A stretch of DNA of 64,000 nt, taken from the NCBI GenBank assembly GCA_029906195.1, contig JARWSJ010000003.1, forward strand, positions 558,001 through 622,000. The letters run 5' to 3'. This stretch comes from Chitinophagaceae bacterium 26-R-25. Lineage in GTDB: Bacteria > Bacteroidota > Bacteroidia > Chitinophagales > Chitinophagaceae. Shown here piece after piece: positions 2,946-59,727 of the stretch; the stretch's first letter is position 1; every line of letters begins with the position of its first letter. The notes beneath the pieces are model-generated. The model was given only the letters and a program-made list of their open reading frames with translations, was not told where the DNA came from and made no database searches. The position numbers and the translations under genes are program-made.

Positions 2946-3030
2946 TGAGTAGTGAGTTTTGAGTTGTGAGTAGAAAGGCGCAAATTGACTACTTAACACT
3001 CATTACCCAAAACTCAGAACTCAAAACACT
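2946..3030. repeat. Inverted 7-mer tandem repeat (GAGTTTT type)
   Basis: The left part, 2946-2972, reads as GAGTxxT heptamers. The right part, 2993-3030, reads the same units in reverse complement (AAAACTC). It lies between the fcl stop and the start of the next gene, and it accounts for the in-frame open codons upstream of the ATG at 3035. Confidence 0.7.
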
Positions 3031-3034
3031 CCCC

Positions 3035-3784
3035 ATGTTTTCGATCTTTAAAAAGAAAATAAAAGAGGAAACAAACCTCAGCGGTTTGCAATGTGACATG
3101 CATTCTCATTTACTTCCGGGTATTGATGATGGTGCAGCCACAATAGGTAATTCGATGACACTTATCAAAGGGTTAAGTGAATTGGGTTATAGCAAGCTGA
3201 TTACCACGCCGCACGTTTACTGGGATATTTACAAAAATACACCCGATACTGTGAAGGCTCCACTCGCCGTGGTAGAAGAAGCAATAAAGGAAGAGAAAAT
3301 TCCGGTAACCATTCACGTTGGTGCTGAATATTATCTTGATGATCACGTAGACGATTTAGTGCAGAACAATGAACGTTTGCTCACGCTGCATAAAAACTAT
3401 ATGCTGTTTGAGTTCTCATTTGTAAATAAGCCCTTGAACTGGCAAAACAAAATATTCAATCTGCAAATGAGTGATTACCAACCTATCCTTGCCCACCCTG
3501 AACGCTATTCATACTTCAGGAGCAACATGAAAATTTTCGATGAGATCAAGAGCACCGGCTGTTTGCTGCAGGTGAACCTTTTATCATTAACCGGCTATTA
3601 CGGGAAAACGGCGCAGGAAATAGCAGCCTATCTTATCGACCACAATATGGTGAGTTTTTTAGGCACTGATATGCATCACGACAGGCATTTGGAAACGCTT
3701 CGTGGGGGCGGCCCTGTTATAATGCCCGTGGTAAAGAAATTACTCGATGCAGGAGCCCTGTTGAATCCCGAATTTACAGGCTAG
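3035..3784 (+). CDS. CpsB/CapC-type PHP tyrosine phosphatase
   Basis: These metal-dependent PHP-fold phosphatases remove phosphate from the tyrosine-rich tail of Wzc/CapB-type kinases and so control capsule or exopolysaccharide export. The signature CDMHSHLLPGIDDGA (His23 and His25) opens the domain. LAHPERYSYF and GTDMHHDRHLETL supply the later metal ligands. I start it at the ATG at 3035 (MFSIFKKK, 249 aa), because the longer open frame from 2966 is encoded by the inverted repeat. It closes the GT2-gmd-fcl cluster and is followed by a strong terminator. No kinase gene is visible here; it would be expected upstream of the window. Confidence 0.9.
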   Translation: MFSIFKKKIKEETNLSGLQCDMHSHLLPGIDDGAATIGNSMTLIKGLSELGYSKLITTPHVYWDIYKNTPDTVKAPLAVVEEAIKEEKIPVTIHVGAEYYLDDHVDDLVQNNERLLTLHKNYMLFEFSFVNKPLNWQNKIFNLQMSDYQPILAHPERYSYFRSNMKIFDEIKSTGCLLQVNLLSLTGYYGKTAQEIAAYLIDHNMVSFLGTDMHHDRHLETLRGGGPVIMPVVKKLLDAGALLNPEFTG

Positions 3785-3803
3785 TAATTCTACTATCTTC
3801 AAT

Positions 3804-3860
3804 AAAACAAATGCCATTAACCATTAAAAAACATTTTTTGGTTAGTGGCATTTGTTTTTT
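3804..3860 (+). terminator. Intrinsic terminator of the polysaccharide cluster
   Basis: A 20-bp stem (arms 3804-3823 and 3839-3858, one T/G wobble) has a 15-nt loop, and the right arm runs into a T-rich tail. It lies 20 bases after the phosphatase stop and ends the leftmost operon. Confidence 0.85.
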
Positions 3861-4366
3861 CTACCCATCCATATCTCTACAATTCTAATCGATTTAATTA
3901 CAATGTAATTGACAAAATAAATCATGTTTTACGCTGGGGATAATGGGTATTATTTAACGGTAAAACTCAAGCCCCGTCTATTAAATTTTTGTATAACGTA
4001 AAATAGTACTTGCATATGATTTATTTTTTTCGCATATTCATATACGAAATGCATTTCTACCCGCACCAGGAAACTAAGAGTTAATTCTTATATCTTATCA
4101 ATATCTAATATCTCAGATTAGTTAGCAAAAGAAGAAAGTGGTTAAGCTTTCTTGTCCATCCGATTAAATCAGGCTTATTTTTTAGTAGTTCAATTAAACC
4201 CCTTTTTAGTGTTCAGGCGTTTGATCCCAGAGGCTATTAGCGCTATGGGAAACGATACCTCCACCTCCCTACCTTGGAAAATAGTACCGACTATGCCACC
4301 GACACCTAGTGCATACCCGTGAAAAATGATTGTTTTTCTTCTTAAAACACATTAAATCATTTCACT
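3861..4366. other. About 500-bp gene-free leader upstream of ECF sigma gene
   Basis: No supported ORF is present. The first 230 bases are AT-rich. From about 4120 the base composition changes to mixed sequence with small inverted repeats: AAGAAAG/CTTTCTT around 4131-4152, and TAGCGCTA flanked by CCCA/TGGG near 4226-4249. No exact TAnnTTTG box was found. A long structured 5' leader or a small RNA upstream of the sigma gene is possible but not shown. Confidence 0.4.
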
Positions 4367-4867
4367 ATGTCAACAATTGAATTTGATGAAATGCTTGTCA
4401 GCAACGCCGATTTTTTAAAGCCTTTTGCAATTACTTTAACCAGAGACAACGAAACAGCGCAAGATCTTTTCCAGGAAACAATGTTCAGAGCCTTAGCCAA
4501 TAAGGACAAGTACAATGTTGGAACCAACATCAAGGCCTGGCTTTATACGATCATGCGAAATATTTTTATTAATAACTATCGCAGACGAACTAAACAGAAC
4601 ACAATTTTTGATAGCACGCCTAATGACTTTTTATTGAATTACAATCAGGTAGTAGCGGCCAACGCTGCGGAAAGTCATTTAAAGATTAAAGACATACAGG
4701 CGGCTATTCATCAACTGCCGGAAATTTTCCGCAATCCCTTCTTGTTGTATTTTGACGGATATAAATATGCAGAAATTGCGGAAATGCTGAGTGAACCATT
4801 GGGAACCATAAAAAGCAGAATTCACTTCGCCCGGAAATTATTAAAAGAGCAAATTCAGAGATTCTAA
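4367..4867 (+). CDS. ECF-family RNA polymerase sigma factor
   Basis: This is a two-domain sigma-70 family protein of 166 residues that redirects RNA polymerase to a regulon. Region 2 is visible as NETAQDLFQETMFRALANKDK followed by IKAWLYTIMRNIFINNYRR. Region 4 is the helix-turn-helix KYAEIAEMLSEPLGTIKSRI near the C-terminus. No anti-sigma gene is adjacent: the next gene is idi, on its own promoter. Stand-alone ECF factors of this type are common in Bacteroidota. The unusually long gene-free region upstream suggests control at the level of its own transcript. The regulon cannot be inferred. Confidence 0.93.
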   Translation: MSTIEFDEMLVSNADFLKPFAITLTRDNETAQDLFQETMFRALANKDKYNVGTNIKAWLYTIMRNIFINNYRRRTKQNTIFDSTPNDFLLNYNQVVAANAAESHLKIKDIQAAIHQLPEIFRNPFLLYFDGYKYAEIAEMLSEPLGTIKSRIHFARKLLKEQIQRF

Positions 4868-4875
4868 AATCAAAT

Positions 4876-5040
4876 GCAATTAATAATTAATAAGTGGTAG
4901 TTGATACTTTCACACGCTACAATTTGGGGTTTTCATACGATTTGCTGCGTAAAAAATGATTAATTGTAAGCCTGGTAACGCACATTGCATCTACCAAAGC
5001 ATGCAGTGCCATTAATTATTCATTATTAATTATTAATTGC
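4876..5040. repeat. Inverted AATTAATAATTAAT repeat before idi
   Basis: An 18-bp perfect inverted pair (4876-4893 and 5023-5040) is built from 7-nt TTAATAA-type units, with a second copy of the unit just inside at 5011-5022. The right arm ends 7 bases before the idi -7 box. Confidence 0.8.
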
Positions 5041-5046
5041 AATGGC

Positions 5047-5054
5047 TATTTTTG
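5047..5054 (+). promoter_or_regulatory. -7 box for idi (TATTTTTG)
   Basis: This is an exact match to the Bacteroidota -7 consensus TAnnTTTG. It lies inside the longer open frame that begins at 5042. Transcription would start near 5060, so the idi start must be the ATG at 5066 with an almost leaderless mRNA. Confidence 0.7.
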
Positions 5055-5065
5055 CAATAAGCAAA

Positions 5066-5596
5066 ATGTCACAACAAGTAATTCTGGTAAACGAAAAAGA
5101 TGAAATGCTGGGCACCATGGAAAAAATGGAGGCCCATCAAAAAGCATTTTTACATCGCGCATTCAGCGTCTTCATTTTCAACAGGAAAGGCGAAATGCTA
5201 CTGCAGCAACGGGCACTGAACAAGTACCACAGTGCCGGCTTGTGGACCAATGCCTGCTGTAGTCATCCCTATCCCGATGAAGATGTTGAAATAGCTGCGC
5301 AAAGGCGTTTGTATGAAGAAATGGGCTTCACTACACCATTAAAAAAGGCCTTCGATTTCGTTTACAAAGCACCATTCGATAATGGGCTCACAGAGTATGA
5401 GTTTGACCACGTATTTGTTGGTATTCATGACAATGGCATTCGCATAAATGAAAGCGAAGTCAAAGAATATTGCTATAAAAGCGTTGAAGAAATTGCTGAT
5501 TCACTAACTACACATCCCGCAAAATATACAGCGTGGTTCCACATCGCCTTCCCGATGGTGAGGGAGTGGAGAGAAAAGGAACACAGATTTTCATGA
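5066..5596 (+). CDS. idi: Isopentenyl-diphosphate delta-isomerase, type 1
   Basis: This cytoplasmic Nudix-fold enzyme interconverts IPP and DMAPP for isoprenoid synthesis. Family motifs include NEKDEMLGTMEKMEAH at the N-terminus, the catalytic-cysteine region LWTNACCSHP and the Nudix-like segment AAQRRLYEEMGF; the metal-binding Glu region EYEFDHVFVG follows. I start at 5066 (MSQQVILVNEKDE, 176 aa) because a consensus -7 box overlaps the alternative start at 5042. The last codons (KEHRFS, stop TGA) lie inside the left arm of the 43-nt inverted repeat shared with the convergent dgt gene, so the repeat encodes the C-terminus. Confidence 0.93.
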   Translation: MSQQVILVNEKDEMLGTMEKMEAHQKAFLHRAFSVFIFNRKGEMLLQQRALNKYHSAGLWTNACCSHPYPDEDVEIAAQRRLYEEMGFTTPLKKAFDFVYKAPFDNGLTEYEFDHVFVGIHDNGIRINESEVKEYCYKSVEEIADSLTTHPAKYTAWFHIAFPMVREWREKEHRFS

Positions 5597-5763
5597 TTGT
5601 CATGATTCGATAGGATTTTCTACAGATGACCTCGACCTATAATGATTTGATTCCCTTTTCAAATACTTTTTTCAGAAAAAAGGTTTGCCACATTGTTAGG
5701 ATTATGATTTAGATCTAAAAAATCATATCAAATCATGACAATCATGAAAATCTGCGTTCCTTT
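5575..5763. repeat. 43-nt inverted repeat between idi and dgt
   Basis: Arms 5575-5617 and 5721-5763 match with three differences; the core is CAGATTTTCATGATTGTCAT. The left arm contains the idi stop codon, and the right arm ends exactly at the dgt stop. The same core recurs near 27391-27410 and 27440-27460 (inverted pair) and at 47850-47877 (single arm), so it is a dispersed family. It sits where a bidirectional terminator would be expected. Confidence 0.85.
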
Positions 5764-7185: not shown

Positions 7186-7191
7186 GGGGGT

Positions 7192-7351
7192 TGAGAATTG
7201 AAAGTTGAAAGTTGAAAGTTGAAAATGAACTACCTCAAAATTTAAAGGTCACTTCTTTGTCTAAAATGCTAAAAATTCGAACATTCATTTTGATGTTCGA
7301 ATTTTTAGCATTTTCAATTTTCAACTTTCAATTTTCAACTTTCAATTTTCC
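7192..7351. repeat. Nested repeat: GTTGAAA heptamers around a 22-bp perfect hairpin
   Basis: Left tandem heptamers at 7192-7226 (GTTGAAA units) and their reverse complement at 7311-7347 flank a perfect 22-bp hairpin (arms 7263-7284 and 7293-7314, 8-nt loop). It separates the amidase 3' end from the dgt promoter. On the minus strand it would terminate the amidase transcript. Confidence 0.85.
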
Positions 7352-7352
7352 A

Positions 7353-8171
7353 TTATTTGGACAGCATGTAAATAATCTTTTTATCCGCCTCTCCAATCAC
7401 CGCTACCGAATCCTGCTCGAAATGCCTTTTAAAGGCCTTTACAGCCGCGGTAGTGTCTTTTACATCATAACCAATAAGACGAAGCCCCTGAAGGTAATTA
7501 AAGCCCTCAGGAACGATAATGTTTGCAGTGTCTGCATACCATTGCCCAAAACCATGCGCATTCAGGTCTTTCCAGGGAAAAAATATGTTTGGATCGTTCT
7601 TGCGGGTTGGTGCGATGTCCGCATGGCCGATGAAGTTTGCTTCGGGAATGCCATAGCGATGTTTCAACGTATCGAGAAGCACCAGCAGGCTTTTTATTTG
7701 TATGGCAGGAAAAGAATCGTAGCCGTTATTGTCCAGCTCAATACCGATAGAGCTTGAATTTACATCCGTTAAATTTCCCCACTTCCCTGCGCCGGCGTGC
7801 CAGGCTCTGAGGTAGTCGTTCAGCATGTGATGAATGGTACCGTCCTTACAAATCACATAATGCGCGCTCACCTGGGTACGTGGCAGCGTGAATGTTTTTA
7901 AGGTTTGATCGCAGCTGTTTTGCGCTGTATGATGGATGATCACAAAATTGGGCTTGCGCATGCTAAAGTTTGTCGTCCCAGCCCAGAAGGGAGCATTGGC
8001 TACTGAATCTACGACTATGTTGTCAGGTAAAGATTTTAACGTTTCGGCAAACTGTTTGGCCTGCTTTTTATACGATTTGTTGGTAGAGGCGTATGGCTTG
8101 GGAGCGCAGCCAAAAACGGTCATCATGCATATCACAAGAAAGAATGCCTTGCTAAAAAAACGATTTGCCAT
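7353..8171 (-). CDS. N-acetylmuramoyl-L-alanine amidase, lipoprotein (Amidase_2)
   Basis: This AmpD/PGRP-like zinc amidase cleaves the bond between MurNAc and the stem peptide. Zinc-site segments are FVIIHHTAQNSC and FIGHADIAPTRKNDP; the central WHAGAGKWGN and IGIELDNNG are family hallmarks. I start at the ATG at 8171, giving MANRFFSKAFFLVICMMTVF followed by Cys. That is a lipoprotein signal with lipobox VFGC, so the protein is probably anchored in the cell envelope and acts in the periplasm. The longer frame from 8213 would bury this signal. The C-terminal extension (TTAAVKAFKRHFEQDS) resembles a peptidoglycan-binding helix motif. Murein recycling or turnover is the likely role. Confidence 0.9.
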   Translation of the reverse strand: MANRFFSKAFFLVICMMTVFGCAPKPYASTNKSYKKQAKQFAETLKSLPDNIVVDSVANAPFWAGTTNFSMRKPNFVIIHHTAQNSCDQTLKTFTLPRTQVSAHYVICKDGTIHHMLNDYLRAWHAGAGKWGNLTDVNSSSIGIELDNNGYDSFPAIQIKSLLVLLDTLKHRYGIPEANFIGHADIAPTRKNDPNIFFPWKDLNAHGFGQWYADTANIIVPEGFNYLQGLRLIGYDVKDTTAAVKAFKRHFEQDSVAVIGEADKKIIYMLSK

Positions 8172-8265: not shown

Positions 8266-8399
8266 GTTGTTAGTTGTTAGTTAATAGTTGTTAGGCGTCT
8301 TGTGGAACTCGCCTTCTGATAGCTGCCTTCGGTTTAAAAGCACTGGTTCACATAATGACTAACAACCAACAACTAACAACTCTAAGCAACCAACAACTC
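8266..8399. repeat. Inverted GTTGTTA heptamer repeat
   Basis: GTTGTTA units at 8266-8294 face reverse-complement units (TAACAAC) at 8357-8399, with a 60-base spacer. It lies between the divergent amidase and glucosidase genes, so here it is not at a 3' end. No exact promoter box was found on either side. Confidence 0.75.
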
Positions 8400-8414
8400 T
8401 TTTAAATCACCATA

Positions 8415-14477: not shown

Positions 14478-14510
14478 GAGGCGGAGAGTTTTAATGATCA
14501 AAAGTGAAAA

Positions 14511-14595
14511 GTCAAAAGTAAAAATTCAAAAGGCAAAATGGTTTATTGCCATAACGCATGATAGAACCGGGGCCTTTTGAATTTTACCTTTTGAC
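14511..14595. repeat. Inverted AAAAGTCAAAAGT-type repeat
   Basis: 24-nt arms 14511-14534 and 14572-14595 differ at two positions and have a 7-nt periodic pattern (AAAAGTC/AAAAGTA). It lies between the DHS-like gene 3' end and the hemJ start. On the minus strand it follows the DHS-like stop by about 12 bases. Confidence 0.8.
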
Positions 14596-14607
14596 TTCTT
14601 CGCAATT

Positions 14608-15672: not shown

Positions 15673-15770
15673 GCTTAATGCTTAACGCTCAAGGCTTAAC
15701 GCTGAACGCAAGTGTGCGGGCTGGTGCTTATTAAGCCAGCGTTGGGCTTTAGGCGTTTGGCCTTAAGCAT
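15673..15770. repeat. Inverted GCTTAAC/GCCTAAC-type repeat
   Basis: The left arm, 15673-15709, is built from CTTAACG-like heptamers. The right arm, 15736-15770, is its imperfect reverse complement. It lies between the small secreted protein gene 3' end and the DHS-like promoter, next to a classical terminator at 15771-15800. Confidence 0.65.
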
Positions 15771-16320: not shown

Positions 16321-16402
16321 ATTCAAAAGGAAAAATTAAAAATTCAAAAACCGTTCAATGCTGGTTTGCTGCTTTTTTACTTTTTACTTTTCCCTTTTGA
16401 CT
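16321..16402. repeat. Inverted AAAAGG/AAAAGT A-rich repeat
   Basis: A-rich heptamer-like units at 16321-16342 face their reverse complement at 16379-16402. It lies between the two paralogous secreted protein genes, just after the stop of the upstream one on the minus strand. Confidence 0.6.
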
Positions 16403-17223: not shown

Positions 17224-17448
17224 AATTGAAAATTGAAAGTTGAAAATTGAGAATGCTTTTTCGGTAGGGTGTTTTATGCCAGGCACGTTTGCTAACTGTG
17301 CTAAAGTTTCTTTACCACTGAGGCACTAAGAACACAAGTTTCACTAAGAGGTTCCCTTAGTGCGGCTAAGTGTTCTTAGTGACTTAGTGGTAATGTTTAA
17401 GATGCGAAGCATCGCCATTTTCAACTCTCAACTTTCAATTTTCAACTA
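17224..17448. repeat. Composite repeat: heptamer pair around a CACTAAG pair
   Basis: The outer pair is GTTGAAA/ATTGAAA heptamers at 17224-17253 and their reverse complement at 17417-17448. Inside is a second inverted pair, 17312-17352 against 17354-17393, made of CACTAAG-type 8-nt units and nearly continuous over 40 positions. Two unrelated repeat families are nested around a common centre. The unit ends 6 bases before the promoter box of the DegT gene. Confidence 0.85.
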
Positions 17449-18716: not shown

Positions 18717-18893
18717 TTAATTAATAATTAATAATTAAGAATTAACAGGTGTTGCACTGAAATTGAAAGTTGTGTTCTTTTGAAATAAAAGAAAGGCCGC
18801 ATTCATTCACGAATGCGGCCTTTATTAATTTTAAAACTTGATGCGTCTTTTGTAAACCGCTCTATTAATTATTCATTATTAATTATTAATTGG
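18717..18893. repeat. Inverted TTAATAA repeat enclosing a terminator
   Basis: Tandem 7-nt TTAATAA-like units at 18717-18745 and their reverse complement at 18863-18893 flank the hairpin at 18792-18823. It is the same unit family as 4876-5040. The left arm begins at the DegT stop codon. Confidence 0.8.
18792..18823. terminator. 13-bp perfect terminator hairpin
   Basis: Arms 18792-18804 and 18811-18823 are perfectly complementary (AAAGGCCGCATTC) with a 6-nt loop, A-rich on the left and T-rich on the right. It should work for both convergent genes. Confidence 0.85.
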
Positions 18894-23157: not shown

Positions 23158-23297
23158 AAGTAAAAAGTAAAAAGTCAAAAGCGTTTAGCGCTGTCAGACA
23201 TTATAGTCTTTGATTTATTAGGTGTGTATGGTGGTAGAGCCTAATGAAGAATATTTCACCAAATGTTTTTTGACTTTTGATTTTTGACTTTTTAATT
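23158..23297. repeat. Inverted AAGTAAA/AAGTCAA heptamer repeat
   Basis: AAGTAAA-type 7-nt units at 23158-23181 face reverse-complement units at 23266-23297. It lies between convergent genes (PAP2-like and MATE), directly at the MATE stop. Confidence 0.8.
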
Positions 23298-24652: not shown

Positions 24653-24777
24653 GAATAACTGAATAACTGAATAATTGAATAACTGAATGACTGAATAACT
24701 GAGTGGTTCAATGTCGAACACCATGACTGAATTTAACATTCAGTTATTCAGTTACTCAGTTATTCAGTTACTGAGTC
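24653..24777. repeat. Inverted AATAACTG octamer repeat
   Basis: Six to seven 8-nt units (AATAACTG with variants) at 24653-24705 face reverse-complement units at 24737-24777. It lies between the divergent MATE and cydAB genes. The same unit is found at 30958-31207, 55622-55637, 56553-56575 and 59460-59495. Confidence 0.9.
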
Positions 24778-27327: not shown

Positions 27328-27508
27328 ATAATTGAAAATTGAAAGTTGAAAATTGAAAGTTGAAAATTGAAAATGAAAGAAGAAACCGAATGCAGATTCT
27401 CATGATTCGCCTTGGTTTTTTATTTGATCTTAATAAATCGTGACAATCATGAAAATCTGTGTTCTATTCCTCCATTTTCAACTTTCAACTTTCAATTTTC
27501 AATTCTCC
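27328..27508. repeat. Composite repeat: heptamers around a CAGATTTTCATGATT pair
   Basis: GTTGAAA/ATTGAAA heptamers at 27328-27374 and their reverse complement at 27471-27508 enclose an inverted pair of the CAGATTnTCATGATT element (27391-27410 and 27440-27463). That inner element is the idi-dgt repeat family. The outer family is the same as at 7192 and 17224. The composite lies between cydB and the ctaA promoter. Confidence 0.85.
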
Positions 27509-28587: not shown

Positions 28588-28600
28588 CTATTTTGGTGCC

Positions 28601-28671
28601 GAATGCCTAACGCCTAACGCTTAAAGCAGGTACTTCCGTGTTAAGCGTTAGGCGTTCAGCTTTTGGCATTT
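28601..28671. repeat. Inverted GCCTAAC heptamer repeat
   Basis: GCCTAAC units at 28601-28624 face GTTAGGC-type units at 28640-28671, an almost uninterrupted hairpin with a 15-nt loop. It lies just after ctaA. The same family occurs at 15673, 47061 and 55560. Confidence 0.8.
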
Positions 28672-28734: not shown

Positions 28735-30966
28735 ATGAAGCAAGCACTTAAAGCCATATTCTATTCCTTCCCTGTGCAGTTGGTGTTATTGCACATCAAG
28801 AAGTTCCAGCTACTTTTAATATTTTGGGTGGTTTTATTTGCGGCGGTAAATGGCAGCTTCATGGCGTCATTTGGTGTTGACAGTTTGTACCTCGCACCGG
28901 AATATTTGGGAGATGTAAATGCGATGAGTGCCGCCATTGTTGGACTTGCAGTTGGTGTATTTATCATGGGATGGAACATTACAACGTTCATTCTGTTTAG
29001 CCGCCACTTTCGTTTTCTTGCCACCACAACAAGACCTTTTTTAAAATACTGCATCAATAACTTTATCATTCCGCTGGCTTTTTTACTTTTTTATCTGGTT
29101 AAAGCCATTGCATTTGGAATGAATCAGGAATTGTTAACCGCGTTCGACATTGTGATCCTCGCAGGCGGATTTTTATTCGGATTTATTTTCATTATAGCAC
29201 TTTCATTTCTATATTTTTTTAGAGCAGATGTCACCATTGCCCGACATATGTTTGCCGTGCAAGACGCGCCGAAAACCGTGGCATATGGCTACCGTCCGCA
29301 TATTGTATTGAACAGCGGTGGCAGCCGGTTGATAAAAGTGACAACCTACCTTGACACGCCAACTTCTGCAAGACCGGTTCGTGACGTATCTCACTATAGT
29401 AAAGAGTTTATTGAAACAGTTTTTGGAAGGCACCACTTTGCTGCGATCTTATCGGTGTTCGCGTCATTCGTATTCCTGATCATTATTGGATTTTTCCTCG
29501 ACAATCCTGTATTTCAGTTGCCAGCAGCGGCCAGCATAACGCTTTTCTTTTCCATATTGGTTGCAGTGTCCGGAGCATTTTCTTACTTTCTGCAAAGCTG
29601 GAGCATGCCATTTTTGATTGTGCTTATAATAGTCATCAACGTCTTGTACAAGTACAACGTGATTGATGCTACAAACAAAGCATATGGGCTGAACTATTCA
29701 AAAAACGTAGAAAGGGCTGCATATACCCACGAATCTCTAGCATCATTATGTACAAAGGAAAAGGTTGAGCAGGACAAACAAAATATGATTGGCATCCTGA
29801 ACAAATGGAAAGCAAAACAAGGCGTTGAAAAACCTTATTTGTATTTCATTTGTGTAAGCGGCGGCGGTACAAGAAGTGCCACTTTTACGTTCAATACTTT
29901 GCAAAGGCTTGACAGTTTGAGTAAGGGCGAGTTGATGAAAAAAACATTCCTGATAACAGGCGCATCCGGTGGTATGCTTGGCGCTTCTTATTTCAGAGAG
30001 TTATATGGCCAGAAACAAAGCGGGAAAAATATTCGCTTACAAGATAAAAGATACGCGGACAACATTTCGAAAGACCTGTTGAACCCGGTATTCTCCTCGT
30101 TTATTGCAAGAGATTTGGCGTCACCTGCGCAAAAGTTTTCAGTGGGCGATTATACCTATTCAAAAGATCGAGGTTTTGCATTTGAAGAAAAGCTCAATGA
30201 AAATACCGGCGGTGTGATGAACAAACAGATGAGAGACATTAAGGACGATGAGGCAAATGCCCGGGTGCCATTGATGTTTTTCAATTCGGTTGTTACAGGA
30301 GATGGTCGCAAAATGATCATTAGCACCCAGCCCGTCAGCTATATGATGCAGCCCGTTCATGACACTGCAAGCCTCGGCCATATGGAGCCGGATGCAATTG
30401 ATTTTAATGCATTGTTTGCAAAACAGGACCCAATGAACCTGCGCCTGCTGACTGCCCTGCGCATGAGCGCAACGTTCCCGTACGTACTGCCCAACGTTTG
30501 GCTGCCAACAACGCCTGTGGTTGATGTAATGGACGCGGGCTTCCGCGACAACTTCGGCATAGAAGGATGCACACGATTTATAAACGTCTTTCATGACTGG
30601 ATCGCAGAAAACACTGCTGGCGTTATAATGCTCCAGATACGTGATAGAAAAGGCGGTGAGTGGGACTATCAGCCGCAGCCCAACAATGTAACGGAGATCA
30701 TCACAAAACCTGTACTGACACTACAATACACCTGGTACAAAATGCAGCAGTACAACCTGAACGATATGCTCGCCCTCACAGAAAGATCATTCGGCGATCA
30801 CTTCAAAAAGATTACATTTCAATACGTTCCCGGCGAACATGAAAAAGCTGTAACGCTTAATCTTCACCTTACCAAAAGCGAAAAGCTTGGTTTGTATCAA
30901 ACCCTGAAGAATGAGTACAACACGCATTCGTTCAAGGTGTTTGAGGAGCTGCAGAAGAATAACTGA
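28735..30966 (+). CDS. Membrane-anchored patatin-like phospholipase
   Basis: This is a two-part protein of 743 residues. Residues 1 to about 310 hold six or seven membrane helices. From about residue 370 there is a patatin domain: oxyanion motif SGGGTRS (near 375-381), nucleophile Ser411 in ITGASGGMLG (GxSxG), and catalytic Asp600 in VMDAGFRDNFG. Patatins are acyl hydrolases on phospholipids. The membrane fusion would hold the catalytic domain at the inner membrane. The start at 28735 follows the inverted repeat. The final codons and stop (AAT AAC TGA) are the first unit of the AATAACTG repeat. Confidence 0.85.
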   Translation: MKQALKAIFYSFPVQLVLLHIKKFQLLLIFWVVLFAAVNGSFMASFGVDSLYLAPEYLGDVNAMSAAIVGLAVGVFIMGWNITTFILFSRHFRFLATTTRPFLKYCINNFIIPLAFLLFYLVKAIAFGMNQELLTAFDIVILAGGFLFGFIFIIALSFLYFFRADVTIARHMFAVQDAPKTVAYGYRPHIVLNSGGSRLIKVTTYLDTPTSARPVRDVSHYSKEFIETVFGRHHFAAILSVFASFVFLIIIGFFLDNPVFQLPAAASITLFFSILVAVSGAFSYFLQSWSMPFLIVLIIVINVLYKYNVIDATNKAYGLNYSKNVERAAYTHESLASLCTKEKVEQDKQNMIGILNKWKAKQGVEKPYLYFICVSGGGTRSATFTFNTLQRLDSLSKGELMKKTFLITGASGGMLGASYFRELYGQKQSGKNIRLQDKRYADNISKDLLNPVFSSFIARDLASPAQKFSVGDYTYSKDRGFAFEEKLNENTGGVMNKQMRDIKDDEANARVPLMFFNSVVTGDGRKMIISTQPVSYMMQPVHDTASLGHMEPDAIDFNALFAKQDPMNLRLLTALRMSATFPYVLPNVWLPTTPVVDVMDAGFRDNFGIEGCTRFINVFHDWIAENTAGVIMLQIRDRKGGEWDYQPQPNNVTEIITKPVLTLQYTWYKMQQYNLNDMLALTERSFGDHFKKITFQYVPGEHEKAVTLNLHLTKSEKLGLYQTLKNEYNTHSFKVFEELQKNN

Positions 30967-31207
30967 ATAACTGATTGACTGAATAACTGAAAGCTGTGGG
31001 CTTAGGCACGCAACAATATTCTGGAGTCAACAGTAGAACTTTATTCATCTTCGTTCTGTTGCACACTTGAACTGCAGTAGGTTTTTCGACAAAAAAAATC
31101 ATCAGCAAAGGACTTTCAGAACAGATCAATCAGTGTACATCAGTCAAATCAGTGTCATCTGGGTGCTCTCAGTTACTCAGTTATTCAGTTAATCAGTTAT
31201 TCAGTTA
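30958..31207. repeat. AATAACTG octamer pair joining two convergent genes
   Basis: Octamers at 30958-30990 contain the patatin stop. Reverse-complement octamers at 31165-31207 contain the symporter stop at 31197-31199 and its last codons. A third motif, ATCAGTGTACATCAGTCAAA (from about 31129), lies in the spacer and recurs near 59668. Both genes are therefore closed by the same repeat. Confidence 0.88.
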
Positions 31208-32435
31208 TTTGCCTCTCCATCCAGCCCTTCCCTTCGATCATTCTTGTAACCAACATTCCCGCCACTGTATCTCCTGTCGCATTTAAAATCGTAGCAATCG
31301 GGTCAACCAATGTGCCGATGATCATTACAGCAGGAACAGCCGATGCTGGTAAACCATATGCAGAAATGATAAGCAATTCTCCGATGTAGCCACCGTTTGG
31401 AATACCGCCTTCAACAATGCTAACTATCACGCTTAGGCCAAGCGCCAGGGCAACTGTATCAATGCCAGCAAACGGCTTGTGAAACATCGCAAAGACCACA
31501 ACAATTTTTGTGACCGCAGAAATAGAAGAACCATCTTTGTGCAACGCTGCACCAAGAGGCACCACCAGGTTACCGATGTACGGAGGAATGCGCATCTTCT
31601 TTGCAGCATCAAGATTGGCTGGAATCGTAGCAATGCTGCTGCATGTGCCGATGGCAGTTGCACTGGGAACAATGTTGTTTTTCCAATACAGTGCAACGGC
31701 TTTCGTACCCCCTGCAATGAATGCGTATATGCTGAAGAAAATGATAAAGTAGAAAATGCTCACGCCATGAAACAGCGCCAATGCCTTGCCATAGGTGCCA
31801 AAAAGTTGCGGCCCGATCGTGCCGACCTGGTAAGCGAAATAAGCACCTAAACCAACAGGCGCCACTTTCATAATGATCAGCAACACATGCTTCATCACCT
31901 CCGTTCCAGAGTCGATAAAATCATGAAAAGGTTTCCCTTTTTCACCGGCCCTCAATATCGCGAAGCCTATTAACAAAGAGAAAATAATCAGGGCCAGCAT
32001 ATTTTTTCGCGAAAGCAGAATATAGAAATCGGGCACTGTGAGCAGTTGTGTTAATTCATCTCCTGCACTTTGCTTGGTTACTTCGGCTGAAAATGTGGAG
32101 CCATCACCATTTGATTGACTAAACGGAAAGAGCCACGCGATCAACACTGTAACAAACGCAGCAATTAAAAGTGTGCAAACAAAAACGAAGAATGTGCTGC
32201 CGAGTATTTTGCCAAACTTTTGCGAGCGGTCAATATTTGCAATCGCCGAAACAATGCAAAAGAAAACCAGCGGTACAACAGCTGTAAATAAAAGGTTGAT
32301 GAAAATGTCGCCAATAGGTTTGATCAACGCGATCTTTTCACCCCAGATAATACCTGCAATACTGCCTAAAAAAATGCCTGTCAGCAACAACAAGATGCCA
32401 CTATAATTTTTGAGAAATGAATTGCTATTGTTCAT
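31197..32435 (-). CDS. Dicarboxylate/amino acid:cation symporter (SDF family)
   Basis: This GltP/DctA-type secondary transporter of 412 residues imports glutamate, aspartate or C4-dicarboxylates with H+ or Na+. Family marks are the re-entrant loop SATAIGTCSSIATIPANLDA, LVVPLGAALHKDGSSI and the late NATGDTVAGMLVTRM region. The start is the ATG at 32435 (MNNSNSFLKNYSG); the longer frame from 32519 lies upstream of a consensus -7 box. The C-terminal residues QITE and the stop are encoded by the AATAACTG repeat, showing the repeat has taken over the end of the gene. Confidence 0.92.
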   Translation of the reverse strand: MNNSNSFLKNYSGILLLLTGIFLGSIAGIIWGEKIALIKPIGDIFINLLFTAVVPLVFFCIVSAIANIDRSQKFGKILGSTFFVFVCTLLIAAFVTVLIAWLFPFSQSNGDGSTFSAEVTKQSAGDELTQLLTVPDFYILLSRKNMLALIIFSLLIGFAILRAGEKGKPFHDFIDSGTEVMKHVLLIIMKVAPVGLGAYFAYQVGTIGPQLFGTYGKALALFHGVSIFYFIIFFSIYAFIAGGTKAVALYWKNNIVPSATAIGTCSSIATIPANLDAAKKMRIPPYIGNLVVPLGAALHKDGSSISAVTKIVVVFAMFHKPFAGIDTVALALGLSVIVSIVEGGIPNGGYIGELLIISAYGLPASAVPAVMIIGTLVDPIATILNATGDTVAGMLVTRMIEGKGWMERQITE

Positions 32436-38790: not shown

Positions 38791-39157
38791 CGGAAAATAA
38801 GGGCCTGAAGGGCGTTTAAAAGCATCTAATTCTGTTCTTTTTTAAGCAATTGTGCGAAAAATGGGGAAAGGATAGTTGCGATGGAAATTTGAGATTTGAG
38901 ATTTGAAATTATGTGAAATCAGATGCGCGGGAGAGAAGTTGATTTAGCTAAGGTGTTTTGGGTAAAAGACAAGGTCCAATTAAGTGGCCAGGGAAAGTAT
39001 GAATTGGATCAAACCACGTGTAAATCGGCGCCAATGCCGGGGTTGAGAGAACATTATTTTCAAATTTTCAAATTTTCAAATTCGCACATTACCAAAAAAT
39101 GACAATTCGCTTACAACAATGTTTTAACACGCATTAGGTTTACAAATTTTAACAACA
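38791..39157. other. Divergent gyrB/AraC intergenic region with weak repeat pair
   Basis: No ORF is supported. GAGATTTGAGATTTGAAATT at 38889-38908 (7-nt period) and TTTTCAAATTTTCAAA units at 39058-39082 (8-nt period) form a loose inverted pair. Inside, TCCAATT and AATTGGA (about 38976-39010) form a short stem around a 20-base loop. Promoter boxes flank the region on both sides. Confidence 0.45.
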
Positions 39158-45089: not shown

Positions 45090-45177
45090 GAAATTGAAAA
45101 TTGAAAGTTGAAAATTGAAAATGATGATGCGCGACGAATGCTCAGACCTGACAGGTTTTTTAAAACCTGTCAGGTCT
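45090..45177. repeat. Single-arm GTTGAAA heptamers plus 16-bp perfect hairpin
   Basis: ATTGAAA/GTTGAAA units at 45090-45122 have no facing arm here. They are followed by a perfect 16-bp inverted repeat AGACCTGACAGGTTTT (45144-45159) with its complement at 45162-45177 and a 2-nt loop. This lies 6 bases after the asnB stop on the minus strand and probably ends asnB. Confidence 0.8.
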
Positions 45178-47691: not shown

Positions 47692-47765
47692 TTGTTAAGT
47701 AAAGCTCTTTTGCGATTTAATAATCTTGACGATAATTTTAGTTGCCATCTTGTAAAGTGCAACAA

Positions 47766-47877
47766 GGCTTCGACAAGCTCAGCCTGACACTCAGTTCACG
47801 CTGTCAGGCTGAGCTTGTCGAAGCCTCTCGCGTTAATAGACCATCATACCAAATCATGACAACCATGAAAATCTGCG
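47766..47877. repeat. TTCGACAAGCTCAGCCTGAC palindrome, copy 2, plus dispersed element
   Basis: Perfect 24-nt arms at 47766-47789 and 47802-47825 have a 12-nt loop. A single arm of the TCATGACAACCATGAAAATC element (the idi-dgt family) follows at 47850-47877, directly at the alpha/beta hydrolase stop. Two unrelated families are therefore side by side. Confidence 0.88.
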
Positions 47878-51188: not shown

Positions 51189-51285
51189 TTGTGTGTTATG
51201 AGTTATGAAGTGCGGGTTGCAAATCAAATTGTTTTTCGCTTGGGTATTTATGAAAATTTAATATAGGTCCCTACAGGTAGGTTTT

Positions 51286-51312
51286 GATTTTTTACTTTTT
51301 ACTTTTCACTTA
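51286..51312. repeat. Single arm of TTTTTAC/TTTTCAC heptamers
   Basis: TTTTTACTTTTTACTTTTCA has a 7-nt period and belongs to the AAGTAAA family. Its facing arm is not present, so this copy is half of the usual pair. It sits in the leader of the DUF2071 gene. Confidence 0.6.
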
Positions 51313-53120: not shown

Positions 53121-53212
53121 GAAGGCCCGCCCGGATGAATCCGGTTCGGACGGGCTTCGACAAGCTCAGCCTGACAACCCGCTCGCGCTGTCAGGCTGAG
53201 CTTGTCGAAGCC
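53121..53212. repeat. TTCGACAAGCTCAGCCTGAC palindrome, copy 3, with GC-rich palindrome
   Basis: Perfect 24-nt arms at 53153-53176 and 53189-53212 have a 12-nt loop. A second palindrome precedes them (GCCCG ... CGGGC with CCGGAT/ATCCGG inside, 53125-53155). The same two-part order is found at 35652-35742. A reverse-oriented remnant of the GC-rich part lies at 59698-59727. Confidence 0.88.
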
Positions 53213-53400
53213 TTGTTAAGCAGGAACAGTGATTGATATTGCTGTTTTTAGTGTTTAAAAAATGTTTAAACGCATAGTTACAAGATGGAGGTTTTATTCA
53301 CTTAAAATGACAAATAATTGCATTGTTTGCACATTGCACAAACGATTGTTAAAGATTATTGTCGAACGTTTTCATTATTTTGCACAAAAGAAACGATTGT
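53213..53400. promoter_or_regulatory. acs upstream region with imperfect -7 box and direct repeats
   Basis: A near-consensus TTATTTTG (53375-53382) lies 19 bases before the acs ATG. The 10-mer AAACGATTGT occurs twice, at 53340-53349 and 53391-53400, bracketing the promoter and ending exactly at the start codon. A GTTTG...CAAAC pair covers 53325-53343. These may be operator sites. Nothing else is seen here. Confidence 0.45.
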
Positions 53401-55314: not shown

Positions 55315-55317
55315 GGA

Positions 55318-55610
55318 ATTGAAAATTGAAAGTTGAAAATTGAAAATGGGTAGGGGCGAATCGCATTCGCCCTCAATCATAGTTCTGCAAGGCTTGTAGC
55401 CTTGCAGTTTTATTTTATTGCATGCAGTCGCTCTCCGAAGCTTTTAGCCTCGGAGTTTTATTTTGTTGCTTCTGGCAACATCTGTTATCGCCGGAGGCGA
55501 TAGAATAATGCTCCGAAGCTGGAAGCTTCGGAGAGCTAAGACAGTACGCGATTGACGCGCCCAATGCTCAACGTCCAACGCTGGCGCGCTTCGCGTTAAG
55601 CCTTGGGCGT
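55318..55610. repeat. Repeat-only intergenic region downstream of acs
   Basis: In order: a single arm of ATTGAAA heptamers (55318-55347), a GGCGAAT/ATTCGCC hairpin (55354-55371), the mini-hairpin mosaic (55385-55533) and an inverted CAACG/CGTTGG-type pair (55563-55612). With the terminator that follows, all 387 bases between the acs stop and the transpeptidase stop are repeat-like sequence. No gene is present. Confidence 0.8.
55385..55533. repeat. Mini-hairpin mosaic, modules A-B-D-C-B
   Basis: There are five short hairpins with 3-4-nt loops. A is CTGCAAGGCT/AGCCTTGCAG (55385-55407). B is CTCCGAAGCT paired with a one-base-different arm (55433-55455). D is GTTGC/GGCAAC (55465-55479). C is ATCGCC/GGCGAT (55487-55501). 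B again, perfect, lies at 55511-55533. Spacers contain TTTTATT or AGAATAATG. The same four modules recur at 59516-59659 in the order B-C-D-A-A. Confidence 0.9.
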
Positions 55611-55680: not shown

Positions 55681-55701
55681 AGACGACAGTTGTTAAAAGC
55701 C

Positions 55702-56256: not shown

Positions 56257-56647
56257 AACTTTTATTGACCTTTTAACAGGAGTAAAGTTTAGCGGGTCCG
56301 CGTTATTAATTTTCGCTGCTACAACACAAACGTTTATTTGTGGGATTTATTTTTTGTGTGGAAAACTTTAACTAATTGAAAATGGAAAGTTGAAAGTGGA
56401 AAATGGGGTGCTTAGTTGGTGGTTGTGGCAGTAGCCGGTAGCCGGTGGCCAGCGGTAAGAGGTTGTTTATTATTCGATCCGTTTAAGTTATTAAAGAATG
56501 TTGCACATAAACACCGGCATCCGGCCCCTGGCTACTGGCTGCTATTTTTGATGACTCAGTTATTCAATTATTTGCGGCTATCTTTAAGACAGATTTTTTT
56601 TCAGAAACTTAAAATATTTGATTTCCCTGCCCGTCTACCTTAAGTAC
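56257..56647. other. 391-bp divergent region with a GTAGCCG repeat pair
   Basis: No ORF is supported. GTTGAAA-type half-arm at 56375-56406, then GTAGCCG heptamers at 56429-56455 facing their reverse complement at 56513-56541, then AATAACTG-type half-arm (reverse) at 56553-56575. Two unpaired arms of other families thus flank one complete pair. The sigma factor promoter probably lies near AATATTTG (56609-56616), one mismatch to TAnnTTTG. Confidence 0.6.
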
Positions 56648-57226: not shown

Positions 57227-57267
57227 TCGTGAATGGTCACAACACGAAAACAAAAAAATTAAACGAT

Positions 57268-57681
57268 ATGAAACGCGGATTTTTCTTTAAAAAATTTATC
57301 ATGGTGCTGTTGTTTGGCACCGTTGCTGTGTTGCTCTTCAGTTTCATAGTAATGAGTTTGTGGAACGGAATTCTTCCTTCAGTGATACATGTATCGGCCA
57401 TTACATTTCCACAGGCAATAGGAATACTTGTATTGAGTAAGATTTTGTTCAGCGGATTCAAAGGCGGTCCTCGTCGCGGTGGGCCATGGGGCGGCGGACC
57501 TGGCGCATGGAAAGAAGGAATGCGTGAGAAATGGCAAAAAATGACGCCGGAAGAACAGGAAAAGTTCAAACAAAAAATGCGCGAACGCTGTGGCAGCTGG
57601 AGACGAGGATTTAATGAACAACAACCTGCTGCAAACACAACTGCTGCCAACGCAACGAGCGGCGACGGCGGAGCAGAATAA
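57268..57681 (+). CDS. Small two-helix membrane protein with Gly-rich and charged tail
   Basis: The 137-residue protein starts at the ATG at 57268 (MKRGFFFKKFIMVLLFG). Two hydrophobic segments (VLLFGTVAVLLFSFIVMSLW and FPQAIGILVLSKILFSGF) anchor it. They are followed by a Gly-Pro-Arg stretch (GGPRRGGPWGGGPG) and a charged helix (KEGMREKWQKMTPEEQEKFK) that resembles Spy/CpxP-like or heavy-metal-sensor proteins. It follows the sigma gene in the same operon, so it may act as its membrane-bound regulator; this is inference. A GTG 15 codons upstream is an alternative start. Confidence 0.7.
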   Translation: MKRGFFFKKFIMVLLFGTVAVLLFSFIVMSLWNGILPSVIHVSAITFPQAIGILVLSKILFSGFKGGPRRGGPWGGGPGAWKEGMREKWQKMTPEEQEKFKQKMRERCGSWRRGFNEQQPAANTTAANATSGDGGAE

Positions 57682-57712
57682 CCAACTACTCTTTATCCAA
57701 ACTAAATAACTT

Positions 57713-57928
57713 ATGGAAGTTCTTGTATTCAAAACAAACATTCGACGCAGGAGGAATGTGGAATCAATAGTAAAGCATATTTCAAAGCTTGGAGGCATTA
57801 TCAGGTGGAATGTGGACCTGCACGACAAAGACAAGATCCTGCGCATTGAATCTGATAACCTCTCTCCAAGACACGTTGAAAACACACTGCAACATGTAGG
57901 GTATTATTGTGAAGAATTGCAGGATTAA
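57713..57928 (+). CDS. HMA-like ferredoxin-fold protein lacking the CxxC motif
   Basis: This 71-residue protein has the strand-helix-strand-strand-helix-strand order of heavy-metal-associated domains: EVLVFKTNI, RNVESIVKHISKLGG, IIRWNVDLHDKDKILRIES, PRHVENTLQHVGYYCEEL. The metal-binding CxxC loop after the first strand is replaced by RRRRN, so it should not bind copper the usual way. One cysteine remains near the end. It is the third gene of the sigma operon, 31 bases after the previous stop. A protein-interaction or degenerate chaperone role is possible. Confidence 0.75.
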   Translation: MEVLVFKTNIRRRRNVESIVKHISKLGGIIRWNVDLHDKDKILRIESDNLSPRHVENTLQHVGYYCEELQD

Positions 57929-57962
57929 ACAACAATCATTAAACACTTAAAAAACATTTACC

Positions 57963-58076
57963 ATGGCAAAAAAAATAAGCTACTTCCTTGTAAACTGGCC
58001 CACATTATTGATCGAATTGACCGATAATATTTCAAGATCAATCAACTACCTTTTCAGAAGCTTTTCCAAAGCATAA
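57963..58076 (+). CDS. 37-aa micropeptide at the end of the sigma operon
   Basis: An ATG at 57963 opens 37 codons with a TAA at 58074-58076. The peptide starts MAKKISYFLVNWPTLLIEL and continues with a serine/asparagine-rich amphipathic part (TDNISRSINYLFRSFSKA). It has one hydrophobic stretch and basic residues at both ends, as in small membrane-associated peptides. It follows the HMA-like gene by 34 bases of A-rich sequence, like the spacings upstream in this operon. It is below the usual length cut-off of gene finders. No known family was recognised. Confidence 0.55.
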   Translation: MAKKISYFLVNWPTLLIELTDNISRSINYLFRSFSKA

Positions 58077-58296
58077 GAGGCTCACAATCAATTGTCAATA
58101 AAAGTGGTAGAGATATATACCGGAAATTCTCTTCCTCCGTATAGTACCATTCAATATTTGTAAAACTCCACAAAGACCGGAAAAAACATTTTACCTTCGC
58201 GCTTCATTTTCGCCTCAGTATAAAAACAAATCCTTGCATTTATTTGCTCCTGCCATATGGTTTTGCTGATTGCGAACCAAAGTCTTACAAAAGAAT

Positions 58297-59466
58297 ATGA
58301 AGCGTTCACAGGAAATTTTCATGGCCATTTGCACAGGTCTTATTGTTGCAAATATTTACTATAGTCAACCTCTTATACCCTTAATAGCAAAGGAGTTTGG
58401 CATTGCAGAAGCACAAGCGGGGCAAATTACATTTCTTAATCAGCTAGGTTATGCACTCGGCATCTTGTTCTTTGTGCCTGTCGGAGATTTGATAGAGCGC
58501 AAAAAGCTGATCATGGCAGTCACCATGATTTGTGTGGGAAGTCTTGCTGCCACCACATTTGCCAATCAATTCTGGCTCCTCGGCATTGCGTCTGTTTTTG
58601 TAGGTGTAACAAGTGTTGTTCCGCAAATGATCATACCGATGGCGGCGGCACTCGCATCTCCCGAGAAAAGAGGAAAAGTAATCGGCAACGTCATGAGCGG
58701 CTTGTTAATCGGCATTCTTCTTTCAAGAACATTGAGCGGCGTTGTAGGTGCACATTTTGGCTGGAGAGGCATGTACGGCCTGGCAACAATCATCACGCTG
58801 GTGCAATTGCCTTTAATGTATTTCTTCTTACCGCAAAGTCAACCAGCATTCAATGGCACTTACGGCAAACTGATGAAGTCGTTGTTTGAAATGTTCAAAT
58901 ACAATGAGCTTCGCGAAGCAACTGTATTAAGCGGCGCTGCATTTGCGTGTTTCGGCATGTTTTGGACGGGGATGGTGCTGTGGCTCAGCAGTCCTGCATT
59001 TGGACTGAACAGTGATACGATCGGTTTGTTTGGATTGGCGGGCGCACTGGGCGCTTTATTCGCACCACTTGCAGGTAGAAGTGCGGACAAGCGTCACCCC
59101 AGGAAAGCGATAGGTTTAGGTGTTATCGTATTGGCGCTTTCGTTTGTAATTTTTTATATTTTCCGATACTCCATCATCGGCATCTGCTTTGGCATCATCA
59201 CACTCGATTTCGCCATGCAGGCGATTCATGTAAGCAATCAAACAAGAGTGTACGCAATACTTCCGGAAGCACGGAACCGTCTCAACACAATTTACATGAC
59301 TGGCGCTTTCATTGGCACCGCATCAGGCTCTGCCCTTGCATTGATCGTGTGGAAACATGGCAGTTGGCCGGGCATATGCCTTACAGGCGTTGTAGTAATG
59401 GCGCTTGCGATGGGGCTGTTTGTAGCAACGAAAAAGAGATACGCGAAGGTGACAATAGCTGAATAA
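58297..59466 (+). CDS. MFS transporter
   Basis: The twelve-helix major facilitator has 389 residues. The first helix reads FMAICTGLIVANIYYSQPLI, the loop 2-3 motif is GDLIERKKLIMAV, and the second half begins EATVLSGAAFACFGMFWTGM with loop GRSADKRHPRKAIGLG. YYSQPLIPLIAKEFG is typical for the YgaY/drug-efflux-like group. Substrate unknown. The start is the ATG at 58297 (MKRSQEIFM); nine codons upstream are preceded only by TTG. The C-terminus (IAE) and the TAA stop lie in the first unit of an AATAACTG repeat. An imperfect box TACCTTCG is near 58192. Confidence 0.9.
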   Translation: MKRSQEIFMAICTGLIVANIYYSQPLIPLIAKEFGIAEAQAGQITFLNQLGYALGILFFVPVGDLIERKKLIMAVTMICVGSLAATTFANQFWLLGIASVFVGVTSVVPQMIIPMAAALASPEKRGKVIGNVMSGLLIGILLSRTLSGVVGAHFGWRGMYGLATIITLVQLPLMYFFLPQSQPAFNGTYGKLMKSLFEMFKYNELREATVLSGAAFACFGMFWTGMVLWLSSPAFGLNSDTIGLFGLAGALGALFAPLAGRSADKRHPRKAIGLGVIVLALSFVIFYIFRYSIIGICFGIITLDFAMQAIHVSNQTRVYAILPEARNRLNTIYMTGAFIGTASGSALALIVWKHGSWPGICLTGVVVMALAMGLFVATKKRYAKVTIAE

Positions 59467-59727
59467 CTGAATAACTGAGTAACTGAATAACTGAAGGCAC
59501 GCCACATCTGTGGCTCTCCGAAGCTTCCAGCTTCGGAGTTCTATTCTATCGCCTCTGGCGATACCATTGTTGCCACAGGCAACAGAATTATGCTGCAAGG
59601 CTACAAGCCTTGCAGAGCATTGACAACAGAATGATACTGCAAGACTAAAAGCCTTGCAGAGCTTTAATCAGTGCAAATCAGTTAAATCAGTGTCATCCCC
59701 GTCCGAACGGCTTCAGCTGGGCGGGAG
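59460..59727. repeat. Repeat-only intergenic region downstream of the MFS gene
   Basis: In order: unpaired AATAACTG octamers (59460-59495) containing the MFS stop, the mini-hairpin mosaic (59516-59659), an AATCAGTG-type motif (59668-59693, also at about 31129) and a GC-rich palindrome remnant (59698-59727) related to the leader of the CTCAGCCTGAC repeats. Five families occur within 270 bases. Confidence 0.85.
59516..59659. repeat. Mini-hairpin mosaic, modules B-C-D-A-A
   Basis: B is CTCCGAAGCT/AGCTTCGGAG (59516-59538). C is ATCGCC/GGCGAT (59548-59562). D is GTTGCC/GGCAAC (59569-59583). A is CTGCAAGGCT/AGCCTTGCAG (59593-59615). A second A with one altered base lies at 59637-59659. All have 3-nt loops. 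Stems are perfect except the last. The loops differ from those of the first cluster while the stems stay the same. Confidence 0.9.

Follow-up and report, generated by a model that had tools for sequence, protein, structure and literature searches.

Heptad arrays are known from the short tandemly repeated repetitive (STRR) sequences of cyanobacteria and from the heptad-built P6b hairpin of the tRNA-Leu intron, where they are inverted within the hairpin. REPINs, which occur with RAYT transposases, are small dispersed inverted pairs with a spacer and have no heptad arms. Here we analyzed inverted pairs of short tandem arrays with 7- or 8-nt units (heptads and octads) in the intergenic gaps of Chitinophagaceae bacterium 26-R-25. 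The window, meaning the whole stretch of 64,000 nt under study, was G000:C3:558001-622000, where G000 denotes the genome of this strain (6.51 Mb). It was compared with two congeneric genomes, G001 and G002; all three were taken as Pinibacter, family Chitinophagaceae, and a total of 1.42 Mb was sampled over them. The inverted-pair layout was real and far above chance, and the words of which the arrays are built are dispersed families rather than local inventions.

Heptads are over-represented in many bacteria, and PMC4692102 and PMC4679880 cite Mrazek's polymerase-slippage hypothesis for them. In two genomes of Xanthomonas, the inverted pairs of GGGAATC heptads number 70 and 75 and are described as "in convergent orientation"; the heptads prefer four units, lie on average 28 nt after the 5′ open reading frame (ORF), and are under-represented between divergent genes (Rehm et al., 2015, PMC4692102). 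The same source reports inverted heptads of the GGGGA(C/T)T kind in Nostoc, as well as variation of heptad length and sequence between species. TAACTGA heptads occur in Beggiatoaceae, cyanobacteria, and five Bacteroidetes, and of those in the main genome, 169 sets are direct and one is inverted, most of them lying immediately upstream of start codons (MacGregor, 2015, PMC4679880). BrickBuilt, a miniature inverted-repeat transposable element (MITE) of Porphyromonas gingivalis, carries 23-nt direct repeats between short terminal inverted repeats (TIRs) similar to those of the IS5 family (PMC4596501), and small inversions in chloroplast genomes flip the loop between short inverted arms among relatives (PMC2903610).

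The closest published counterparts of the Pinibacter elements are the heptads of Xanthomonas and Nostoc, with which they share the intergenic 7-nt unit, the preference for four units, and the variation of length and sequence between species, and with those of Xanthomonas also the convergent inverted pairs, the single polarity, and the place shortly after genes, the published "convergent" being read as G-rich strands that point inward. Because the four units, the convergent pairs, the post-gene position, and the depletion in divergent gaps agree, the Pinibacter elements may be filed as a variant of this heptad kind. However, Xanthomonas and Nostoc have one G-rich word per group, which was read as quadruplex-forming, whereas Pinibacter has many words of both 7 and 8 nt, and spacer inversion and the exchange of words at the same site set it further apart. 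The TAACTGA heptads are intergenic too, and their word resembles the octad AATAACTG, but the excerpts describe direct sets and a position before start codons. BrickBuilt is likewise an intergenic element of Bacteroidota with tandem repeats, predicted stem-loops, and turnover between strains, but the build of its repeats and TIRs as described there is different. A preliminary description of the window, made from the sequence alone, had considered the pattern undescribed in Chitinophagaceae-like genomes. The pattern is not entirely new in view of the published heptad excess, the inverted pairs of Xanthomonas, the inverted heptads of Nostoc, and the TAACTGA heptads of five Bacteroidetes, but full-text searches of open-access papers did not find the many-word form, a single polarity across many words, inverted spacers, or words exchanged between orthologous sites.

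Period and inverted-pair layout

Periodic segments of the window scoring at least 11 numbered 22 at period 7 and seven at period 8, with none at periods 3-6 and 9-11 and two at period 12. Matches at longer periods were mostly multiples of 7 or 8, with one or few at other long periods. Ten dinucleotide shuffles of the window served as the control and gave a mean of 0.0-0.2 segments per period. Over 464 kb of G000, there were 83 segments of period 7, 48 of period 8, 10 of period 9, and seven of period 12, and at most two at each other period from 4 to 13; the counts for periods 7 and 8 were 127 and 66 over 604 kb, and 78 and 57 as well as 56 and 39 in the sisters. Unit lengths were thus not evenly scattered in the 464 kb covered, where periods 7 and 8 dominated, and the density was not matched by the nearly empty shuffles of the window. 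The central observation of the preliminary description, one layout and period across many words, stood far above shuffled sequence.

Tandem Repeats Finder reported arrays at the places given in that description. In the window, 11 inverted-complementary pairs were detected, and 15 arrays scoring at least 9 stayed unpaired. Among close neighbors within 250 nt, 60 of 82 (G000), 44 of 58 (G001), and 22 of 31 (G002) were inverted-complementary, compared with means of 5.5, 4.4, and 2.1 and maxima of 11, 10, and 7 after the array positions were shuffled. The number of close neighbors also exceeded that of random intergenic placement in G000 (82, maximum 63) and G001 (58, maximum 48). The neighbor-pairing counts were based on pair set A, comprising 126 pairs (60, 44, and 22 by genome; arrays scoring at least 10), and the arm-length, own-arm, purine, GGG, recurring-word polarity, and word-label counts on pair set B (56, 45, and 25 pairs; score at least 9, arms of at least 20 nt), whose equal size of 126 is a coincidence. 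The array thresholds miss degenerate three-unit arrays.

Arm length and polarity

Four units were found in 88 of the 148 paired heptad arms and 72 of the 104 octad arms, with a drop on either side (arms <20 nt excluded). Polarity was counted in pairs, since the orientations of the two arms agree by the definition of a pair. None of the words occurred in both orientations relative to the spacer in the 126 pairs of the three genomes. The test is informative for words present in at least two pairs, namely 14 words in 113 pairs over the three genomes, a count that includes orthologous pairs, and 10 words in 47 pairs in G000 alone; there were no exceptions in either set. The inward strand was purine-rich in 120 of 126 pairs and had more G than C in 109 and less in 11. 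Left and right word labels were identical in 93 of 126 pairs, while the others were labeled differently yet passed the inverse-match test.

The inward strand of the 252 paired arms never contained GGG, and the G-tract feature of the quadruplex reading for Xanthomonas and Nostoc is therefore absent from Pinibacter. Since the four-unit arm and the inward polarity recur in words without GGG, the quadruplex reading of the four-unit preference in Xanthomonas is weakened. A stop-codon cassette was also considered and rejected as a rule, since AAAAGTC, GTACGGT, and AGAGTGG lack the all-frame stops that many inward words carry. An apparent hot spot of variant units by position in the array was discarded as unreliable owing to edge effects.

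Word families and spacers

A 1.4-kb query containing the GTTGAAA and GTTGTTA pairs gave 129 alignments in its own genome, self and strand-doubled matches counted. The 17-nt octad motif AATAACTGAATRACTGA had 331, 320, and 113 matches in G000, G001, and G002, where one array may give several, and the same motif read backward as a control had none in these genomes. Among the 147 genomes searched in the taxonomic family, a strict pattern of the AATAACTG element was present in two (G000 and G001) and was missing from G002. The earlier claim that the arrays share nothing but layout held between families, but words recur genome-wide. The spacers of AATAACTG elements were similar, in both orientations, in 11 of 78 pairs within G000, compared with 22 of 1105 between families, and the AATAACTG family retains a weak 37-nt spacer core.

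Turnover at orthologous sites

The three collinear congeneric genomes exposed gain, loss, word exchange, and spacer flips at orthologous sites, whose flanks were collinear (aligned blocks of about 74-95% identity). In 517 ordered comparisons of sites, which like the orthologous comparisons are not mutually independent, the partner held the same family in 372, another heptad family in 60, an empty site in 24, and something else in 61. A different family was assigned by arm score, and this class takes in a few diverged members of the same family (e.g., g0 cluster 50, g2 cluster 17). Two window sites (16331 and 51282) were empty in both sisters. At g0 cluster 125, the left arm was AAGTCAA in G000, where it matched the right arm, and AATTGAA in G001 and G002, with flank and spacer recognizable between G000 and G001.

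Where a pair was detectable in both genomes, the spacer had the same orientation in 42 comparisons, was inverted in 12, unrelated in 14, and ambiguous in two; by locus, these classes numbered 29, 8, 10, and 2, where one locus may hold two classes. Another 237 comparisons were excluded because one of the genomes had no detectable pair, and segments longer than 700 nt were skipped. Six of the eight inverted loci were strong by score, and one of the eight lay inside the window (24653-24770). As in the chloroplast inversions, the loop was inverted and the flanks were unchanged, but tandem arms are not described in the excerpt of that work. The inversions are evidence that hairpins are active.

Other accounts of the turnover were tried and rejected. 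If spacers were original sequence later framed by arms, they would be expected in the partner's gap; in the 145 turnover comparisons, seven spacers resembled that gap and 53 did not (80 of the rest had no detectable pair, and five were skipped by length limits). A special mechanism for word exchange at the same site is not required, because the 60 of 145 turnovers to another heptad family are close to the ordinary occupancy of gaps of at least 60 nt (134 of 378 in G000, 91 of 234 and 84 of 254 in the sisters), and independent turnover suffices. There was no clear signal of whole-unit slippage in 235 matched orthologous arrays, as 69 were of equal length and the differences among the others covered a spread of sizes instead of only 7 or 8 nt.

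Gene context

Genes were called using our own codon-usage script instead of a published caller, and 137 of 141 G000 clusters fell in the called gaps. The cluster density per kb in G000 was 1.76 in convergent, 1.63 in tandem, and 1.05 in divergent gaps, and the sisters followed the same order. Arrays in tandem gaps (194 gaps over the three genomes) began a median of 14.5 nt past the upstream gene and ended 51.5 nt before the next, a position that fits promoter avoidance as well as a role at 3′ ends. Clusters were present in 23 of 67 divergent gaps of at least 60 nt in G000, unlike intrinsic terminators, which are expected to be absent between divergent genes. Since divergent gaps are occupied too, termination is not the whole story.

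Elements in the window

The following elements and arrays were located in the window:

2946..3027, GAGTTTT-type pair; arms 2946-2971 and 3011-3027, spacer 39 nt
4878..5038, TTAATAA pair; arms 4878-4893 and 5011-5038, spacer 117 nt; other sequence at the G002 site
7191..7354, GTTGAAA pair; arms 7191-7224 and 7310-7354, spacer 85 nt; GTGGAGA/TTGAGAG-type pair in G001, a different palindrome in G002
8266..8381, GTTGTTA pair between divergent ORFs; arms 8266-8289 and 8361-8381, spacer 71 nt
14500..14598, AAAAGTC-type left array (14500-14538); right partner seen by eye only, not called as a pair
15673..15709, GCTTAAC array; GCTTAAC also in G001, GTACGAT pair at the G002 site
16331..16398, AAAATTC and AAGTAAA arrays (16331-16349 and 16374-16398); inverse match under the pair threshold; by parsimony a gain in G000
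17224..17445, AATTGAA pair; arms 17224-17254 and 17421-17445, spacer 166 nt with a nested CACTAAG inverted motif
18718..18891, TTAATAA pair; encloses a separate GC-rich terminator-like hairpin; not in G001 or G002
23158..23292, AAGTAAA/AAGTCAA pair; spacer 86 nt
24653..24770, AATAACTG pair; arms 24653-24702 and 24738-24770, spacer 24703-24737
27330..27504, AATTGAA pair; spacer 101 nt; GTGGAGA pair at the G001 site, other palindrome at the G002 site
28597..28656, GCCTAAC pair; spacer 15 nt
30957..31209, AATAACTG pair; spacer 176 nt
38887..39082, period-7 ATTTGAG array and period-8 ATTTTCAA array; arms unmatched; CGTGAAA pair at the G001 site
45091..45122, single AATTGAA array; inverted partner not detected
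51282..51311, AAGTAAA-type right array; by parsimony gained in G000
55317..55347, AATTGAA array; the G001 and G002 sites hold AATAACTG arrays
56374..56450, AATTGAA/AATGGAA array (56374-56406), then GTAGCCG array (56431-56450)
59454..59495, AATAACTG array; other repeat motif at the G001 and G002 site

Seven of the ten words listed in the preliminary description (GTTGAAA, AATAACTG, TTAATAA, GTTGTTA, GAGTTTT, AAGTAAA, and GCCTAAC) passed the pair test, and three failed. The supposed ATTTGAA pair dissolved into arrays at 38887 and 39056, which differ in period and are unpaired, the GTAGCCG array at 56431 had a degenerate partner only, and GGCACTAA fell below the threshold for a 7- or 8-nt array. 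The third AATAACTG array, at 59454, also has no reverse-complement partner. In the AATAACTG pair at 24653..24770, the spacer of G002 was inverted relative to G000 and G001; this pair, the sole element folded, had a predicted RNA fold of −50.5 kcal/mol (z −8.4). The Rfam search of the window gave no family match at gathering score.

At 47765-47830 and 53140-53215 of the window, the word GACAAGCTCAGCCTGACA forms inverted repeats that have short spacers and no heptads, and CTTGTCATCCCGACGAAGGAGGGATCT pairs in other stretches likewise have the arm-spacer-arm layout without heptads. Elements of the form AACGCAGATT...AATCTGCGTT with a AATCATGA-like 9-nt period nest in several spacers of AATTGAA pairs (window 27400-27480) and also occur near the transposase locus L059 described below; their interior was inverted between sisters at C3:447672 and C3:461289.

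Transposases, reverse transcriptases, and palindromes

G000 had four Y1 transposase matches, two of them in open frames. The open frame at L061 (G000:C5:57306-57638) is flanked on both sides by GTAGGGGCGAAT palindromes in a REPIN-like arrangement; GTAGGGGCGAATCGCATTCGCCC-type palindromes with spacers at this locus look like the RAYT's own REPINs, and the same palindrome lies in the window near 55350. The second open frame, at L059 (G000:C1:2605487-2605687), lies among GCAAGGCT and TCGCC/GGCGA hairpins, and hairpins of this type also occur in the window at about 55400-55550 and 59510-59620. No heptad pair was present within about 1.5 kb of either open frame, and L059 contained one weak period-7 stretch (score 9). 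The heptad elements resemble the REPIN/RAYT systems as dispersed inverted pairs, but the open Y1 genes adjoin other palindromes. Of the four PF00078 reverse transcriptases, one looked like the group II intron type and one was unassigned; the others, L178 (G000:C2:767057) and L179 (G000:C1:1671209), resemble the antiphage reverse transcriptases DRT4/6 and DRT2, respectively, below the NCBIfam cut-offs. No link between these enzymes and the arrays emerged from the data.

Arrays in other genomes

In 79 other gyrB loci of Bacteroidota, there were 25 arrays of period 7, 15 of period 8, 14 of period 6, and 11 of period 12; since periods 6 and 12 are close behind, the preference for periods 7 and 8 is weaker there. 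Single stretches of up to 20 kb from 20 further genomes of the family held 23 arrays, 14 of them of period 7 (G056 by itself supplied six), and period-7 arrays were missing from 15 of the 20 stretches. Six inverted pairs, in five loci, were found among these stretches and the gyrB loci together.

In 400 kb of the genome G056, from another genus of Chitinophagaceae, there were 120 arrays of heptads and 19 of octads, and 15 of 66 neighbors formed inverted pairs (shuffle mean 3.4, maximum 7). None of its words was paired in both orientations, 12 of the 15 pairs were purine-rich inward, and the words common to the pairs of G056 and Pinibacter (AAAATTG, AAAAGTC, AAAAAGT, and AAAATTC among them) had the same orientation. 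Since most of the 157 G056 arrays lie outside inverted pairs, the pair is not universal. Word sharing with another genus was only moderate, with 37 of 120 arrays compared with a letter-shuffle mean of 8.9 and maximum of 38. Heptads were denser still in G056:C1:1000001-1400000 (L200-L219), where many were unpaired, AGCTATC and AAGTACG formed families of their own, and arrays reached 15 units.

Origin of the arrays

The reading we prefer, at about an even chance of being right, takes the arrays as hairpin repeats that are for the most part selfish or neutral, that have spread in families, and whose form is altered by replication errors at hairpins. The family dispersal, the pairing, the turnover, the spacer flips, and the gap context were counted in its favor. 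A full element has about four units of 7 or 8 nt in each of its two arms, with related words inverted around a spacer. Recurrence, gains, and replacements suggest that such elements spread as sequence families through free intergenic space, probably by way of an enzyme. At their sites, hairpin-dependent replication errors may flip the spacer, add units to the arms or remove them, and let elements collapse or be replaced, and the elements would be tolerated where stop codons and promoters are spared. Several observations weigh against this reading. It leaves two facts unexplained, the four-unit arm and the polarity, as neutral drift accounts for neither. The arrays in tandem gaps lie nearer to the upstream stop codon than to the next start, which could reflect function. 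Outside the AATAACTG family, the spacers of the four further families compared were mostly unrelated (0 of 6, 1 of 15, 0 of 6, and 1 of 6 similar pairs), which is unusual for a mobile element. The close-neighbor count of 31 in G002 fell inside the random range (mean 19.9, maximum 39). No target-site duplication was noticed in the empty sites inspected by eye, whose flanks are too diverged for a firm call, and no enzyme for the spread was found in a search that did not cover DDE transposases and recombinases.

The preliminary description had proposed a process that builds arrays from any seed, or a selected structural role. In the first reading, hairpin slippage would make heptad arms from any local sequence, with one arm templating the other. 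The spacer flips show hairpins acting, heptads are over-represented in many bacteria, with slippage as the published guess (cited in PMC4692102, PMC4679880), and the G000 left arm of g0 cluster 125 matches the right arm as a template-switch correction would give. In the AATAACTG family, moreover, the two arms of an element resembled each other more closely than permuted arms did (the observed value was reached in 0 of 2000 permutations). However, own-arm similarity was not above permuted pairing in the other seven of eight testable families (p =.12-.96), where several families of only five to seven elements give low power, and the copying of one arm from the other was not supported save in AATAACTG. 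The words are common to many loci, the arm lengths peak at four units, and a fixed polarity is not expected from such a process, which we consider unlikely. A selected role as RNA hairpins, either 3′-end stabilizers or bidirectional terminators, would agree with the proximity to upstream gene ends, the order of gap densities in all three genomes, and the strong predicted fold of the one element folded, but it appears doubtful given the occupied divergent gaps, the 145 of 517 ordered comparisons in which the family was not kept, and the separate terminator-like hairpin that some elements enclose.

If a transposase acting in trans had moved the elements, in the manner of MITEs or REPINs, the family structure, the presence or absence at sites, and the weakly conserved AATAACTG core would be accounted for; the other palindromes beside both open Y1 frames, the mostly unrelated spacers, and the fact that neither constant ends nor duplications were noticed make this improbable, with DDE transposases outside the search. 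It is highly improbable that a break-tailing, telomerase-like enzyme writes purine-strand repeats on 3′ ends, two tailed ends then being joined around filler. This would explain why the same strand faces inward in every recurring word, why arms concentrate near four units, and why arm variants are not visibly copied between arms in most families, but neither an enzyme nor a template was identified among the reverse transcriptases found, the shared AATAACTG core argues for the copying of whole elements, and six of the 126 pairs are not purine-rich inward. A broader proposal, which we regard as quite unlikely, is that a dedicated and undescribed activity draws on a limited dictionary of words to write heptad and octad arms of about four units at either side of an interruption between genes, the inward strand always being the same; it would act in Bacteroidota and perhaps, in like form, in Xanthomonas and cyanobacteria.

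With the Pinibacter genomes, a poorly understood class of bacterial repeats, whose mechanism and role are left open in the excerpts of the heptad papers, becomes open to experiment. The fixed polarity is a sharp constraint on any mechanism, and together with the four-unit arm it provides the best experimental handle.

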